Positions 2-6,126 of a stretch of 34,776 nucleotides of DNA are shown one piece after another. The stretch is from the NCBI GenBank assembly GCA_903840015.1, contig CAIMEL010000005.1, positions 1-34,776 of the forward strand. The letters are read 5' to 3'. The notes beneath the pieces were generated by a model, which was not told where the DNA came from, searched no databases, and saw nothing but the letters and a program-made list of their open reading frames with translations. How positions within the stretch are numbered: position 1 is the first letter of the stretch; each line of letters starts with the position of its first letter. The DNA comes from an uncultured bacterium. GTDB taxonomy: Bacteria > Patescibacteriota > Dojkabacteria > SC72. A program made the translations under genes and the position numbers.

Positions 2-1330
2 TTTATACCAGTACTTGCAAGCTTAATGCTGTTTGCATTCGTTAAACCAGCGCATGCCAATATCATTGACACTCTAGAAGGTTGGGCTAATACAGTCCAA
101 TTTGTAAAAGATGTAGTTGATACAGATGGTGAGAATATGGGCCAACTAGTCAACAAGTTTGCATATGGTGCTGGGGAAGCAGCTTTAACTACAGTATGTT
201 TGGAGTGTACAACTGCGGAAGAAAGGGTTCTAAATGATCCTACTCTTCCTGCACATATGAAGATTAGTCTAACTGGTATGGTAGACAAGCAAGTGACTGC
301 AATGTTCAACAATCATCCAAGAGTTGATGTTGTTGCACATCTGGCGAACGAATGGGTCCCTGGTTACAAGGAGTCTAATGCTGTATATGCTGGTGGATAT
401 GATGATTTGAATGATGCAGGTCTCAGTGGGTTATGGTCAATCACAAGAAATATTGCATATATTGGTTTTGTTGTCATTATGATAGCAATTGGATTCATGA
501 TCATGTTTAGGAATAAGATAGGTGGTCAAGCTCTTGTTACCCTTGGGAATTCAATACCTCGTGTTGTTGTTGCTTTGGTATTAGTAACATTCAGTTTCGC
601 AATAATGGGTTTGATCATAGACTTCGGTGGTGTTCTAATGCGTGTCTTCCATGGAATGATATACGATGATCCTGCAGCAGGAATTGCAATATACAATCCA
701 ATCGAACTCTTTATGGGCTTCATAGGACAGAACGCTACACAAGTCGCAGGAACAGGAAGTGCTTTGGGTATCGGCGTCATAGTAACAAGTCTTGTAGCCT
801 TGATGGCAACAGGAGTCGGTTCTACAGTAGCAATTGGAGCTACAATAGGTATCTTAATAATTGCCTTAATTCTTGCTGGTATAATCCTCTGGGGTGCAAT
901 AAAGCTTTGGATTGTATTAATCAAAGCATATCTTGGTCTTTTAGTTAATCTTGTAGTTGCTCCTCTTGCAATACTTTTTGGAGCTCTTCCTGGAAACGAA
1001 TCTACAACAACAAATATATTTAAGTCCGCATTGAGAAATGTTTTGGTTTTCCCATTGGCATATGCCATAGTCAATCTCCCTTACGCGATTGAAGAAAAAG
1101 GATTTTCTCTAGTATTTCCTGAATCATTAGCAACACAGGGAGTTGGTGGTATTGGAATGGATTTCTTCATTCAAATCGCTAAGATAGTTGCAATATATGC
1201 AGCATGTAGTGCTCCTGCAATCCTACAAGGTATTATTCCTTCTACTGCATCCAAATCTGGTGCAGATGCAGCAGCAGCAATTAAAGCTGGATTGAGTGGA
1301 GTACCTTTGATCGGAGGTATGTTTAAATAG
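2..1330 (+). CDS. VirB6/TrbL-like polytopic membrane protein (5' partial)
   Basis: The reading frame is open to the window edge, so the true start lies upstream; the first ATG at 26 falls inside a hydrophobic stretch that ends in A-H-A|N, which looks like the end of a signal peptide. A soluble, probably extracytoplasmic part of about 120 residues follows, then about five or six strongly hydrophobic segments (roughly 480-1000 and 1030-1230 in DNA) joined by Gly/Ala-rich loops. This layout resembles the VirB6/TrbL membrane channel subunit of type IV secretion systems, which CPR genomes often carry next to pilus or secretion ATPases. It sits 12 bp before a large membrane protein with an M23-like end, so the two probably belong to one envelope machine. 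No specific motif proves the family; the assignment rests on topology and context. Confidence 0.5.
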   Translation, partial: FIPVLASLMLFAFVKPAHANIIDTLEGWANTVQFVKDVVDTDGENMGQLVNKFAYGAGEAALTTVCLECTTAEERVLNDPTLPAHMKISLTGMVDKQVTAMFNNHPRVDVVAHLANEWVPGYKESNAVYAGGYDDLNDAGLSGLWSITRNIAYIGFVVIMIAIGFMIMFRNKIGGQALVTLGNSIPRVVVALVLVTFSFAIMGLIIDFGGVLMRVFHGMIYDDPAAGIAIYNPIELFMGFIGQNATQVAGTGSALGIGVIVTSLVALMATGVGSTVAIGATIGILIIALILAGIILWGAIKLWIVLIKAYLGLLVNLVVAPLAILFGALPGNESTTTNIFKSALRNVLVFPLAYAIVNLPYAIEEKGFSLVFPESLATQGVGGIGMDFFIQIAKIVAIYAACSAPAILQGIIPSTASKSGADAAAAIKAGLSGVPLIGGMFK

Positions 1331-1342
1331 TAGTAAGTAAAA

Positions 1343-3919
1343 ATGCCGAAAAGTAAACAGTACGAAGATGCTATGTCGTCAGTCTTTGACTTCATCTTCG
1401 AGCAATCAAAGAAAAGTCCAACAAAAGTAAAGCCTGTGAAAGTAACAGGTGTTGATGGCACTTCTGAATATGTTGACGCAATAGCTGCTACTCTGGAGGC
1501 TCCTTTGCTTTTTGTAAATAATAATACTCTTGAAGCGTTCAAAGATGCTACTGACATAGATTTCGCAGCTTTCCAGGTTGGAGGTAGGAAATCAGATGGC
1601 ATAAAACTCAATGTAAATGATCTTAAGGATATGCTTTCTGATCCAAGTGGTTTTGTGAACAAAAAGTTCTCAAAGATTGAGGGTGCAAGAAAGATGCAAA
1701 GATTAGCTTGGGCTGGTGAGGAGATGAAAGGAGTTCTAGGTGCTGTATGGGCTAGGCAACATAAGCTTGATTTCGATACACAGCAAGCTTTGATGTCTTC
1801 AGCTAAAAGTAGTGAAGGGAGAACTGATGTCTCCGCAACAGAAATGGCCAAGCGTACAGAGTTCCTAGCAGAGAAACATTTTGGATCTGGTGGAAGCGTT
1901 TTAGGTAAAACGGACTTTGAAAGAATGTATGGTAAAGGTCCTAAAGCAGACAAAGCATACAAAAAATACAGTGATGCATACGCTGCATTTTCTAAAACTC
2001 AGGATGTTACAAGTAAGGATTACAAAGATATTGTGTTTGACCGAGATCTTTATGCAGTTCTTGAGGGTGTAGAAATCAGAGGCAAAGCACAGAGTGCTTC
2101 TACTCGTGAGGAGAGGATGGGGTATATATCTGCTGCTAGTATGATTGAAAACAGTAGAGCCTTTGCGAATATGAAGGAGTATATCTCTCAACAGAAGGAT
2201 GCTAGGAAATCTCACCAGCAAGAGATAGATAGGTTGAAGAAAGTCCCAGGTAGTCAATCTTTAATTGATGACCACAGAGCTAGAATTAGAGAAATTGATT
2301 CTAGTTTGGGTGCTGCAAGAAGTTTTCAATTGGGAGACAAACTTGGTGAATGGGAAGGAGCCTTCTATTCTTACAAAGATTATGTGTTTGATGGGAATCT
2401 TCTTCCAAATATCATAAATGGGAAATTCTTCACATCAAAATACAACAAAATAGCTTGGCTACAACCTTCTGAGACGAAAGCAGGACTCTTAGGTTTAGGT
2501 ATGGGAGATTTAGAAGTTCATTACGGAAAAAGAACAGGTAACAAATTCAAAGATATAGCGTATGACAAGATGAATTCTCTTTACTACCTTTCTCCGGTAA
2601 CTTGGGTGAAAACACTGTACAACGGAGAAGGATTCGCATATATGATGCTTAAGAGTAGAGAGAAATTTGAGAAATCTCTTGCCACAATGATGGGGCAGAA
2701 ATTGGGGAAACTAACGAATGGAGATGATGTATTCAAACTACTTGCTGGAAACGATAAAGCTTTGTTAAATCTCTTGTCTGGGAAATTGACAGCTGCAGAG
2801 GAGAGTCTTCTTTTAAGCCAATTCTCCCCTGAGTTACAGGCTGTACTGAAGAACCCGCAAGCATCGAAAATCCTTTCTGGATTTCTCAAAAAAGATTCTC
2901 GTTTCAGGAAATTAGTAGATACATTCAGTTTTGCATCCAAGGTTAAGGCAAAGGTTGCCAAATGGTTTGAAGACAAAGTTGGAAAGAAAGTACGTCTTAA
3001 AATTGCAACAGCTTTGCTTAAGTCTAAACTAGTTAGGAAATATGCAGGAAAAATTCTTGGTCAGTGGATTGCAAAGGGAGGTCTTCAATTATTGATTAAA
3101 GGTTTGGTCACAACAATAACCTCTGCATTAGGTATTGTTGGAACTCCATTAGCCTCTGCAGTTGTTGGAGTATTGACTTGGATAGCAATGGATTTAGTAT
3201 ATGCCTTGTCCAAACCTTTAATCAAAGGTGTAATAGTTGTACTTAAGCTCATGCTGTTTGCTGGTTTAGGATTCATAGCTATTGGGGGTGCTTTCATTTT
3301 CTCTATATTAGGACAGCATTCTCATGTAGCTCCGACACAGATTGTGAGCTGTAGTGGTTTCTCTGGCACTAACCCAATTATAGATCCGGACAATCCAAAC
3401 AATCTTCCACCTGGGGGACCATTGGAGCCTTTTGTTGCAGGATCTTTACCTTCTGGTGTTGAGTGTCTTTTGGGGGATAGTGCATACAATTGTAGCCAAG
3501 GAGTATATGGCACATATTCCCACAAAAATTCTCCAGCCGTTGACCTAACGAATGTTAATTATTTCCATGCTCCTTCATTCTGTGATGTTGCAGATTGTCA
3601 GGTTACATATTTCGGCCCTGTGAACTGTACGGCAGGATATGCAGGAGGCCTATTGAAATTTACTGCCACATACGAAGGGAATACATATGAATTTAAATTA
3701 ATTCATGTAGATAGCTCCTTCTCTGTTGGAGATTCTCTCTCTGGTGGTGAGCGTGTTGCACGAGTCATGGAGCATAGTGAAACTGGTAGCGCATGTTCGT
3801 CAGGGAAGCACCTACACTTAGAAACAAAGTTTAATGGTGCTGTAGTGAATCCTTACGATATGATGACCTCCTCAACTGCCGAGGGTGGTTTCGGTTGTTC
3901 TGTATCTCTATGTCCTTAA
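1343..3919 (+). CDS. Large membrane protein with C-terminal M23-peptidase-like ectodomain
   Basis: This 858-residue protein has three parts. Residues 1 to about 570 are charged, helical and Lys-rich with no signal peptide, and are presumably cytoplasmic. Residues about 575-655 hold two or three hydrophobic helices. Residues about 670-858 form an ectodomain with nine cysteines. The ectodomain ends like a zinc peptidase of family M23 (lysostaphin/LytM type): an L-I-H-V-D segment followed by V-G-D-x-L-x-G-G and then G-K-H-L-H-L-E, where H823 and H825 fit the HxH motif. The first metal motif is irregular: H and D are separated by six residues (H-K-N-S-P-A-V-D) instead of the usual three, so activity is uncertain. 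Order and spacing with the upstream VirB6-like gene suggest a secretion or DNA-transfer complex in which this domain meets the cell wall. The N-terminal domain is not recognised. Confidence 0.55.
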   Translation: MPKSKQYEDAMSSVFDFIFEQSKKSPTKVKPVKVTGVDGTSEYVDAIAATLEAPLLFVNNNTLEAFKDATDIDFAAFQVGGRKSDGIKLNVNDLKDMLSDPSGFVNKKFSKIEGARKMQRLAWAGEEMKGVLGAVWARQHKLDFDTQQALMSSAKSSEGRTDVSATEMAKRTEFLAEKHFGSGGSVLGKTDFERMYGKGPKADKAYKKYSDAYAAFSKTQDVTSKDYKDIVFDRDLYAVLEGVEIRGKAQSASTREERMGYISAASMIENSRAFANMKEYISQQKDARKSHQQEIDRLKKVPGSQSLIDDHRARIREIDSSLGAARSFQLGDKLGEWEGAFYSYKDYVFDGNLLPNIINGKFFTSKYNKIAWLQPSETKAGLLGLGMGDLEVHYGKRTGNKFKDIAYDKMNSLYYLSPVTWVKTLYNGEGFAYMMLKSREKFEKSLATMMGQKLGKLTNGDDVFKLLAGNDKALLNLLSGKLTAAEESLLLSQFSPELQAVLKNPQASKILSGFLKKDSRFRKLVDTFSFASKVKAKVAKWFEDKVGKKVRLKIATALLKSKLVRKYAGKILGQWIAKGGLQLLIKGLVTTITSALGIVGTPLASAVVGVLTWIAMDLVYALSKPLIKGVIVVLKLMLFAGLGFIAIGGAFIFSILGQHSHVAPTQIVSCSGFSGTNPIIDPDNPNNLPPGGPLEPFVAGSLPSGVECLLGDSAYNCSQGVYGTYSHKNSPAVDLTNVNYFHAPSFCDVADCQVTYFGPVNCTAGYAGGLLKFTATYEGNTYEFKLIHVDSSFSVGDSLSGGERVARVMEHSETGSACSSGKHLHLETKFNGAVVNPYDMMTSSTAEGGFGCSVSLCP

Positions 3920-3924
3920 AAATT

Positions 3925-4899
3925 ATGAAAATACAAAGGAAATATTTAATAATTGGTGTCGCAGTGTTGGTAGTATTAGCACTACTTTTAATTATTTTTC
4001 TCCTGTTTCGTAATAATTTGAGATATCCTGAGGAACCTATTAATCAAACATCCCTGGCTGTAAATGAAAAAGAGATTGCACTAGGAAATACAACCCTTCA
4101 AGATGGTCTTGAATATCCGCTCTTCACTGTCTCTGATACTACAAAATATTCCTTTGTTAAATCATTTGCAGAAAAGCTCAATCTTAGTGTTGCGTCTTCT
4201 GAAGAAGGGGAGTATTACGAATGGAGATCAGAGGCGGGTATGTTACTGTATTCGTTGGATAGGAATACAGTAATATTTGAGCTTAAAGAAGGGCTTGAAT
4301 GGAGTGAAGTTGAATTAACAAAGCATTCATTTAATCGTTTCTTAAAAACATATTTTGGAGAGGATTGGAACTATGTTCTTTTTGACAAAGAAAAGAGAGC
4401 AGGGGGTGAGATAGTGTATTATGCGAAAAGAACAATCAATGAAACGGATGTAATCGAGATGAGAGAACATAAAGGGCAAACAGATTATCTAGCTTTGAAA
4501 GATGGCAAGATCATATATGGTAAATTGATGCTTACGGTCTTCACACCTTCACGTTACAAAGTTCCTTTGGTTACTAAAGAGGAATTAAGTTCATACCTAT
4601 TGCAAGCCAACTATCCTAAGGAAATATATCCAAGATTTGAAGCAGTAAGTAATTCGTTATTAGGCAAGGTAGATTATCTCTCTCCCGAATTTGTAAAGGT
4701 TGCTGAGAGTATAGATAATTGCTCGACAAAGGCCGCAACAGTAATTTACTACTACAAATCGTTTGATCAAAAATTACTCACACCTGTGTATAAATTGAAT
4801 ATGGATTGTGATGTATCATACAAAAAGGAGGTATATTCTATTCCAAGTACAGCCTATGTTAGTGCCATTGGTTTGGATTATTTAAATATCTCAGAGTAA
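3925..4899 (+). CDS. Single-span membrane-anchored protein of unknown function
   Basis: The chosen start is the ATG 5 bp after the preceding stop, which gives 324 residues beginning M-K-I-Q-R-K. Upstream in-frame starts (ATG 3910, TTG 3895) overlap the previous gene. A short basic N-terminus and one hydrophobic helix (about residues 7-29) are followed by an extracytoplasmic domain of about 290 residues rich in Glu, Lys and Tyr, with two cysteines near the C-terminus. I do not recognise the family. N-in topology with a folded exterior domain recalls VirB8-type or YycH-type bitopic proteins, but I see no motif for either. Its place directly behind the VirB6-like and M23-like genes suggests the same envelope module. 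Confidence 0.6.
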   Translation: MKIQRKYLIIGVAVLVVLALLLIIFLLFRNNLRYPEEPINQTSLAVNEKEIALGNTTLQDGLEYPLFTVSDTTKYSFVKSFAEKLNLSVASSEEGEYYEWRSEAGMLLYSLDRNTVIFELKEGLEWSEVELTKHSFNRFLKTYFGEDWNYVLFDKEKRAGGEIVYYAKRTINETDVIEMREHKGQTDYLALKDGKIIYGKLMLTVFTPSRYKVPLVTKEELSSYLLQANYPKEIYPRFEAVSNSLLGKVDYLSPEFVKVAESIDNCSTKAATVIYYYKSFDQKLLTPVYKLNMDCDVSYKKEVYSIPSTAYVSAIGLDYLNISE

Positions 4900-4944: not shown

Positions 4945-6126
4945 ATGAATTTAAGACCTTATTTCAAAATTCTTTTTGTATTAACATTTCTTTTGTTACC
5001 TATTTCAAGTATTAATGCTTTCTCTTTTTTTTCTACAGAAACTCAGAAATTAGACAAGTCATTGGCAGAACAATCTAGTACCGTGTATTCTCAACCTACC
5101 AAGATATACATATCGCAGATTAGTACGGATTCCTCTTCTCTCTCTAGAAATCCATCTCAATGGGTAAAGTCACTCTACTATTACTGTATAACAAGACTTC
5201 ACTTTGCAGATTTACCATACACATATCTTCTTGATGAAAATGGAATAATATATCAGGGACGATCCGGATATGTTGGTGCTAATCCAGAGTTGAAGAATAT
5301 TGACGGAGCTATAGTAATAGGCTATCTCTCAAATAATCCATCCTTAACCTCTCGTGCTGTAAGTTCTTTGAACGCTATGGTAGAGGAACTCTCCTACAAC
5401 TGGGGTATTTCTAAAATGCGAATAGTGAAATTAAAGATTGAACAGGAAGAAGGTAAATTAGCAACAGTAATTGCCAATGATACTACAGGAGAGTTTGCTG
5501 ATTCAACAAGGGATGCACTTAAGTATTGGAAAGGATATTCAACGGAACGTATTAACTACAAAGCTAAAATTGAGCAGGTAGATGTTCCAGATCAGACAGA
5601 GATAGGTAAGAGAGTTGCTGTAAAGATTAAGATTAAGAATATGAATGATTTCCCTTGGTTTACAGATGTCGATCCAATATATATATCAACCAAAGGTAGT
5701 AAAGAAAGTGAGTTCGCGATTAACAAGCTTTGGGATAGTTTCAGTAAACCAGTTAGTATCTCAGACAAAGTTGTTCTTCCTTACGAATCTGTAGAAGTCT
5801 CCTTTGAGATGGAAGCAAGGATCCTTATAGGGGAGGCGCGTGAAAGATTTAATATCCTAAAATTCGAAAATGATCCTTTTGAGGATTCTGACTTCGAAGT
5901 AAAATTTAAAATTGTAAAGGGGAATAATCAATTAGTTCGTGTTGCCTCCTCTCAGTATGGATTTGCAAATATTCGTGAATGTAAGAGGTTTAGTTGTAAA
6001 GTTCTAGAAAGTGCAGACAATGGTGCTATCTTTATCCTTCTCGATGAGCAGGATGGTTGGTCAAAGGTTCGATATGGTTCTGAAACTGTTGGGTGGGTTA
6101 TGTCCAGATATCTTAAAAAGATTTAG
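4945..6126 (+). CDS. Secreted protein with degenerate amidase/PGRP-like fold and C-terminal SH3b domain
   Basis: This is a 393-residue protein with a hydrophobic signal segment (residues about 7-26). Residues about 45-190 resemble an N-acetylmuramoyl-L-alanine amidase type 2/PGRP domain: L-P-Y-T-Y-L-L-D-E-N-G-I-I-Y-Q-G-R matches the family's Y-x-F-L-I-D-x-x-G-x-I-Y-E-G-R strand-turn, followed by a G-A-I-V-I-G-Y segment. The zinc-binding histidines expected at the start of the domain and after the E-G-R strand are not visible, so it may bind rather than cut peptidoglycan. The middle (about 200-320) is beta-rich and Ig-like. Residues about 325-393 look like a bacterial SH3b wall-binding domain ending D-G-W-S-K-V-R-Y-G and G-W-V-M. 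It closes the envelope gene group. The domain calls are from pattern only. Confidence 0.55.
   Translation: MNLRPYFKILFVLTFLLLPISSINAFSFFSTETQKLDKSLAEQSSTVYSQPTKIYISQISTDSSSLSRNPSQWVKSLYYYCITRLHFADLPYTYLLDENGIIYQGRSGYVGANPELKNIDGAIVIGYLSNNPSLTSRAVSSLNAMVEELSYNWGISKMRIVKLKIEQEEGKLATVIANDTTGEFADSTRDALKYWKGYSTERINYKAKIEQVDVPDQTEIGKRVAVKIKIKNMNDFPWFTDVDPIYISTKGSKESEFAINKLWDSFSKPVSISDKVVLPYESVEVSFEMEARILIGEARERFNILKFENDPFEDSDFEVKFKIVKGNNQLVRVASSQYGFANIRECKRFSCKVLESADNGAIFILLDEQDGWSKVRYGSETVGWVMSRYLKKI

Follow-up and report, generated by a model that had tools for sequence, protein, structure and literature searches.

The 34,776-base window analysed here is the whole of contig C5, from base 1 onward, in the genome of a Candidatus Dojkabacterium of the Candidate Phyla Radiation (CPR); the genome comprises 680,604 bases in 25 contigs and is 96.6% complete. 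Three tightly packed genes on one strand, p1, p2 and p3, followed downstream by p4, probably constitute the envelope operon of a type IV secretion system (T4SS), in which p2 takes the role of VirB1, p3 is its cognate partner, and the hydrolase domain of p2 forms with p3 an exchangeable cassette. Gene content, co-conservation, the occurrence of two domain types, the co-segregation of p3 with them and the predicted folds were all computed, the named relatives being Candidatus Dojkabacteria (WS6) metagenome genomes.

In the mechanism that we propose, p1-p2-p3-p4 would represent the envelope half of a Patescibacteria (MPF_FATA-like) T4SS, the ATPase half, prgI-trsD-virB4, lying elsewhere on the chromosome. 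The p1 product would be the VirB6 membrane channel subunit. The p2 protein would be held in the membrane, with its large helical inner part probably docking it on the translocon, while its exterior zinc hydrolase, here an M23 endopeptidase, would open the peptidoglycan locally to let the channel or a pilus pass. Until assembly, p3 would most likely fold, inactivate or position the exterior enzyme, and p4 would bind peptidoglycan by its PGRP and SH3 domains. In relatives, an HExxH domain with its own p3 lineage would take the place of the M23 domain and its p3, the scaffold being otherwise vertically inherited.

A probable membrane-tethered hydrolase and its neighbour

The p2 gene (1343-3919, forward strand) encodes an 858-residue protein, assigned as membrane-tethered and VirB1-like from its open reading frame (ORF), hydropathy, Pfam matches, an AlphaFold2 model and a family alignment. 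Hydropathy delineates a membrane stretch at residues 581-658 (bases 3083-3316), where the model displays helices 581-596 and 602-655. The preceding inner part is probably cytoplasmic. All nine cysteines lie beyond the membrane stretch (residues 670, 708, 717, 747, 752, 762, 818, 852 and 857), as does an H-L-H motif at residues 823-825; the coordinates and residues of such a protein in the original prediction, made from the DNA letters and their translations, are confirmed. Locus comparison delimits the exterior part (3317-3916), with an M23 domain here and an HExxH domain instead in other genomes. The Pfam M23 family (PF01551) matches 15 of the 23 sequences of the p2 alignment (A3) at E≤0.1, at best with an E-value of 1.3e-6. 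The AlphaFold2 model, built from 23 sequences, has a mean pLDDT of 72, its exterior domain reaching mostly ~86-94 per 10-residue block, and the first Foldseek match of this domain is LytM (probability 1.00, E 3e-3, TM to target 0.52-0.61), which bears out the M23-like domain that had been proposed.

The first metal motif, H727-x6-D734 (3521-3544), the active-site H788 (3704-3706) and the second motif, H823-L-H825 (3809-3817), contribute five residues that are conserved in all 23 aligned rows, as are C708 and C818. The irregularity earlier remarked in the first motif is thus real and consists of its H-x6-D spacing, but the domain is not degenerate: a non-catalytic M23 domain was ruled out because the five active-site residues occur in 23/23 rows. 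The spacing H(x)nD is described to vary among M23 peptidases (PMC9662197). The p2 protein is therefore best read, from its sequence and model, as a wall hydrolase of VirB1-like kind that is tethered to the membrane and retains its active-site residues, and we infer a peptidoglycan hydrolase activity. No SLT, muramidase or CHAP Pfam match was obtained in the window p2. A distant p2 homologue that adjoins p1 and p4 (locus L105) associates a GH25 muramidase domain (E 2.6e-46) with an M23 domain; since this combination, at the same place, resembles Gram-positive VirB1 enzymes, it argues for a VirB1-like role of p2.

Some p2 relatives depart from this organisation. In L086 (11186-14126), p2 stops after the linker and the M23 domain is found in an overlapping second frame, by sequencing error or real frameshift. 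In Dojkabacteria genomes, second VirB6-like copies (L084 9890-13596, L085 9695-16386, L091 9686-13924) are followed by p2-like scaffolds devoid of a hydrolase domain, which end just past the membrane helices; the scaffold may therefore have a role of its own.

The p3 ORF spans 3895-4899 (forward strand), the ATG at 3925 being the likelier start. From an AlphaFold2 model (pLDDT 90.8), Foldseek and VIA comparisons and the trees, p3 (3925-4899) is predicted to possess one N-terminal membrane helix followed by an exterior domain of YycI/YycH/YpeB (PepSY-like) fold. The matches are an uncharacterised protein (5coz), YycI (2o3o), YycH (2fgt), YpeB (5boi) and propeptides of M4 peptidases (4k90 and 3nqz), with Z-scores of 10.5 for YycI, 9.7 and 8.4 for YycH, 7.4 for YpeB, 7.1 for the fungalysin propeptide and 6.3 for the vibriolysin propeptide. 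The related folds together span Z-scores from 10.7 down to 6.1, against 4.6 for the first unrelated row, values under 8 being weak if taken alone. A VirB8/TcpC (NTF2-like) identity was considered for p3 and set aside as less probable: the model matched YycI, YycH and YpeB, and no VirB8-like fold was present among the matches listed. YpeB and the wall hydrolase SleB are encoded together in an operon, and YpeB is thought to keep SleB inactive; inhibition in vitro was obtained with the N-terminal part of YpeB, and the vibriolysin propeptide has served as template for a model of its C-terminal PepSY part (PMC6660665, PMC13393411). By analogy, p3 most likely guards or chaperones its cognate exterior enzyme, a role suggested by its YycI/YpeB/PepSY-like predicted fold and by its switching together with the exterior domain; it would then bind p2 and might inhibit it.

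Probable exchange of the exterior domain together with p3

The exterior part of p2 exists in two types. Typed loci are those among L051-L089 that have a p2N match and either an M23 or an HExxH match, L067 being counted although split, and truncated, hydrolase-less and frameshifted p2 being left out. The M23 domain is present in 22 of these 29 loci and is replaced in the other seven (L055, L057, L065, L067, L071, L079 and L088) by an unrelated, Cys-rich HExxH domain. The motifs HExxHxxQ and EWGA are invariant in the seven domains, and the HExxH domain, which has no Pfam match and no significant PDB match, is on these sequence features a probable zincin. The M23 and HExxH profiles never match the same p2. 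Of 41 genomes in the order, 13 are matched by the latter profile, weakly so in two cases, and both types are found inside long contigs in four genera (g1, g5, g7 and g11) of one family.

The two types are distributed differently over the trees of the four genes. In the scaffold tree of p2 (25 rows, built on the residues that precede the exterior part, with L070, whose p2 is truncated, left unlabelled and L086 labelled M23), the HExxH label implies four changes, two of which are forced by well-supported branches. Four changes are also implied by the p1 tree (24 rows, obtained by a quick method with no bootstraps) and five, four of them forced, by the p4 tree (24 rows). A single change accounts for the p3 tree, in which the HExxH-type sequences form one clade with a support of 100/99 (22 rows and 28 rows); L067 is absent from it, as the next ORF has no p3 match. 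Approximately unbiased (AU) tests reject a single HExxH clade for the p2 scaffold (p 8.2e-5) and for p4 (p 2.7e-31), and conversely reject both mixed clades tested for p3 (p 4.6e-5, and p 1.1e-53 for the p4-type mixed clade). Because the p3 trees split by domain type and those of VirB6, the p2 scaffold and p4 do not, the exterior hydrolase and p3 have probably been exchanged as one cassette.

The putative border of this cassette can be approached by comparing near relatives. In coarse profiles, the identity between scaffolds carrying different domains drops at about residues 650-730, where that between two M23-type relatives rises, in agreement with an exchange border situated just after the p2 membrane helices. 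The simplest reading is that one piece of DNA was exchanged, extending from just after these helices to the end of p3.

Further observations concern the distribution of the two domains. The genome G006, whose p2 has the HExxH domain, also encodes a separate 262-residue protein with an M23 domain of p2 type (L139 7559-8347). The genome WOFB23 (G019) harbours two p1-p2 copies on different contigs, one with HExxH (L067) and one with M23 (L069), which may reflect a genuine double set or mixed strains. In the complete Dojkabacteria chromosome CP129470, a 978-residue protein encoded between p1 and p4 (L115 11106-14042) has a weak match to the HExxH domain (E 2e-9); the HExxH type may therefore be old in the class. 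Stretches resembling SLT (L158) and lysozyme (L156) between the p2 helices and the HExxH domain were noticed by eye; having no Pfam or PDB support, they were not used.

The operon and the type IV secretion genes

Relatives of p2 are present in 36 of the 58 genomes searched, its own included, and among the 39 loci L051-L089, 37 have p2 directly behind p1, which reaches the contig end, or nearly so, in the remaining two. These counts indicate that the arrangement is not due to chance and uphold the conservation of the gene set. The order p1-p2-p3-p4 recurs in the fetched relatives, with uvrD next where mapped.

The start of the contig falls within p1 (2-1330, forward strand), which comprises 442 codons and is open at the 5' edge; the window opens in mid-gene, and what lies upstream of p1 is therefore unreadable in its own genome. 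The p1 product is a polytopic membrane protein, assigned as VirB6/TrbL-like from TrbL matches in its family and from genomic context. The window p1 itself has no Pfam match at E≤1 and no sequence match in the PDB. The TrbL family (PF04610) matches one of 20 members of the p1 alignment (6e-5) and one of 10 further homologues (L093, 5.2e-6, over the cut-off). In other CPR lineages, homologues of p1 precede prgI-trsD-virB4: downstream of the p1 homologue in the loci L090-L129, mostly from such lineages, prgI is found in 18 of 40 and virB4 in 9 of 40, many of these loci ending before the distance at which virB4 would be reached. This suggests, mostly on context, that p1 is VirB6-like.

The genome encodes further T4SS components, which support the secretion-type envelope machine that had been postulated in this CPR bacterium. 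VirB4, of the CD1110 family (NF045971, E 1.6e-117, over the curated cut-off), is encoded on contig C2 (7,251 bases) beside TrsD (NF041427, E 9.4e-8, under the curated cut-off), and a PrgI-like gene is present at the end of that contig as a 3' fragment only. The prgI-trsD-virB4 order is the same in relatives, where PrgI (PF12666) was matched below the cut-off in L133 (5.4e-5) and over it in L141 (6.2e-12). Seven T4SS pilins (PF18895) are over the cut-off on contigs C10 and C17, and weak TraG-D_C matches also occur. Among relatives, VirB2-like pilins of family PF18895 are present in 18 of 20 genomes and a VirB4-type P-loop ATPase (PF19044) in 56 of the 58 genomes searched.

The secretion ATPase expected just upstream of p1 was not encountered. 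A virB4 operon in this position in Dojkabacteria is rejected, as none was found in the ~10 kb upstream in four mapped relatives; no VirB4 or PrgI profile match occurs within the loci L051-L089, and in the ten contiguous relatives p1-p4 do not lie within ~20 genes of virB4. The upstream regions of L040 (8347-11706), L034, L037 and L041 are much alike in gene order, and encode a small DUF948-like membrane protein, another membrane protein with fn3, and a protein of 435-493 residues that belongs to no known family. In L076 (1-8049), tandem p2X-p3 and p1-p2-p3 sets are found on a single contig. The proposal that the machine moves DNA is not favoured: the relaxase PF03432 was found in none of 20 genomes, other relaxase classes not having been searched, and the nature of the cargo is a matter of inference.

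The last gene of the set, p4 (4945-6126, forward strand), is located behind p3 in related loci as well. Its product would be secreted, with a PGRP-like domain and a C-terminal SH3 domain: SH3_3 is matched in Pfam (E 4.3e-9), and a profile search against the PDB retrieved the SH3 domain of an autolytic lysozyme (7.6e-9) and, weakly, PGRP-SD (E 4.3e-4). In the alignment of the family, no column that is invariant or nearly so is a histidine. From these sequence features p4 is probably a wall binder and probably not an amidase. Beyond p4, Pfam identifies a UvrD helicase, a G5-like protein (below the cut-off), a TPR protein, EF-G and EF-Tu.

Related systems and rival readings

T4SSs of MPF_FATA affinity have already been described in Patescibacteria (PMC12102498). 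According to the same source, VirB1 is mostly not associated with virB4 in these bacteria, VirB8 is rare, other hydrolases may substitute for VirB1, and essential genes for a peptidase and a lysozyme adjoin virB4 in Southlakia; p2 is a candidate for such a substituting hydrolase. The Dojkabacteria system shares with them VirB4, TrsD, PrgI, a putative VirB6-like protein and VirB2-like pilins, as well as the absence of a relaxase match to PF03432, but differs by the distance that separates its VirB6-hydrolase operon from the virB4 operon. In Southlakia epibionticum, the one species tested, epibiotic growth depends on the T4SS (PMC10633639; PMC12857230). Gram-positive VirB1 proteins such as PrgK are reported to be membrane-anchored, with enzyme domains of muramidase or M23 kind (PMC12857230). 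By its sequence and model, p2 resembles PrgK (pCF10), TraG (pIP501) and Orf14 (Tn916) as a putative T4SS wall hydrolase, anchored in the membrane and exposed on its exterior; its M23 domain resembles the LytM (M23-type) domain of PrgK, and L105 possesses both muramidase and M23 domains. It departs from the three in that M23 is its only enzyme domain, its inner part is very large and its partner, p3, switches along with the enzyme domain.

As a PepSY-type partner, p3 recalls YpeB in its pairing with SleB and the M4 propeptides, which are anchored proteins or pro-domains encoded with, or fused to, the hydrolases that they stabilise or inhibit. No sequence similarity to them was found for p3, whose partner would instead be a domain, M23 or HExxH, within a T4SS protein. 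With YycI and YycH it shares predicted fold and topology, but p3 has no kinase gene beside it and belongs to a T4SS operon. In the parts of the literature available, no report was found of a T4SS hydrolase swapped together with a YycI/PepSY-like partner, and what seems to be new here is a VirB1-like protein whose exterior part is exchangeable as a cassette together with the neighbouring gene.

Several observations weigh against the proposed T4SS operon with its cassette. The VirB6 call for p1 combines TrbL matches in two of 30 family members with context, and virB4 lies ~32-57 kb from p2 in the ten contiguous relatives (G001, G005, G010, G012, G013, G014, G017, G020, G023 and G048). The Pfam M23 match of the window p2 (E 7.6e-4) scores 20.1 bits against a cut-off of 28.7, and its helical inner part (residues ~1-580) has no recognised fold, with a pLDDT mostly of 50-88. 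The structural alignments of p3 are loose, with root-mean-square deviations mostly of 4-7 Å, and its profile retrieved no YycI, YycH or YpeB chain at E≤1 in a search of PDB sequences. In YpeB (5boi), the match concerns the C-terminal domain, whereas inhibition is ascribed to another part. The Gram-positive YycI and YycH target the WalK kinase and are not known to act directly on a hydrolase. A neighbour of a Pacebacterium M23 protein (L099) looks like p3 by eye, but the hhalign comparison was not significant. As to the exchange, the AU tests were designed with the domain types already known, and the p4 tree offers just four independent switches on supported branches, all in the same direction but too few for significance, with a sign test p of 0.125; this comparison of independent pairs is descriptive, since the p3 clade labels were read from the 28-row p3 tree.

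Another target for the exterior hydrolase is conceivable, namely the wall of the host, p3 then acting as an immunity-like protein for self-protection and the exchange reflecting differences in peptidoglycan among hosts or a need for hydrolase and immunity to move jointly. Polymorphic toxin-immunity pairs swap a C-terminal enzyme with the next gene, and it is as such a unit that the exterior domain and p3 are probably exchanged; Patescibacteria live on hosts, and the Southlakia T4SS is needed for epibiotic life (PMC10633639). The enzyme is, however, predicted to be tethered to the membrane of its producer, and nothing indicates that it reaches the host. The catalytic residues that it has are in keeping with ordinary wall opening, and the two types of p3 are homologous to each other, whereas immunity proteins are unrelated among themselves. 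We regard this reading as unlikely, though it deserves more weight than the other two rivals. The first of these takes p2-p3-p4 as a set for general wall remodelling or WalK-like sensing whose place in the operon of a VirB6-like gene is incidental, as the p3 fold, which is that of the WalK regulators YycI and YycH, the wall binding of p4 and the remoteness of virB4 would allow. It is made improbable by the almost constant adjacency of p1 and p2, by the p1 homologues that accompany prgI-trsD-virB4 in other CPR, by the second p1 copies that again precede p2-like scaffolds in L084, L085 and L091, and by the absence of a histidine kinase among the genes adjoining p1-p4 in the window.

The swap pattern itself might stem from hidden ancestral paralogy with differential loss, or from chimeras of binning or assembly. 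Many of the genomes are metagenome-assembled, and one that is 80% complete with 3% contamination (G019) holds both types. Paralogy of the whole operon would nevertheless divide p1, the scaffold and p4 by type, which their trees do not, and both types occur inside long contigs in the four genera of one family, so that this origin appears very improbable.

The T4SS envelope operon with an exchangeable hydrolase and p3 is the reading that we retain, and its concrete, testable part is a conserved candidate, with a dedicated partner, for the T4SS wall hydrolase that is mostly missing near virB4. The exchange of the cassette amounts to a natural experiment: it predicts a contact between p2 and p3 and a functional border within p2, and that substrate specificity may change while the secretion motor remains unaltered. 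A broader formulation, which we advance tentatively although it is a serious contender, is that of a polymorphic wall-opening module on a fixed T4SS scaffold, in which a zinc hydrolase and its PepSY/YycI-like guard pass together from lineage to lineage, M23 being exchanged for HExxH, and are possibly matched to the host. If so, these bacteria would keep the motor and channel and change the cell-wall bond that is cut, perhaps with glycan hydrolases added.

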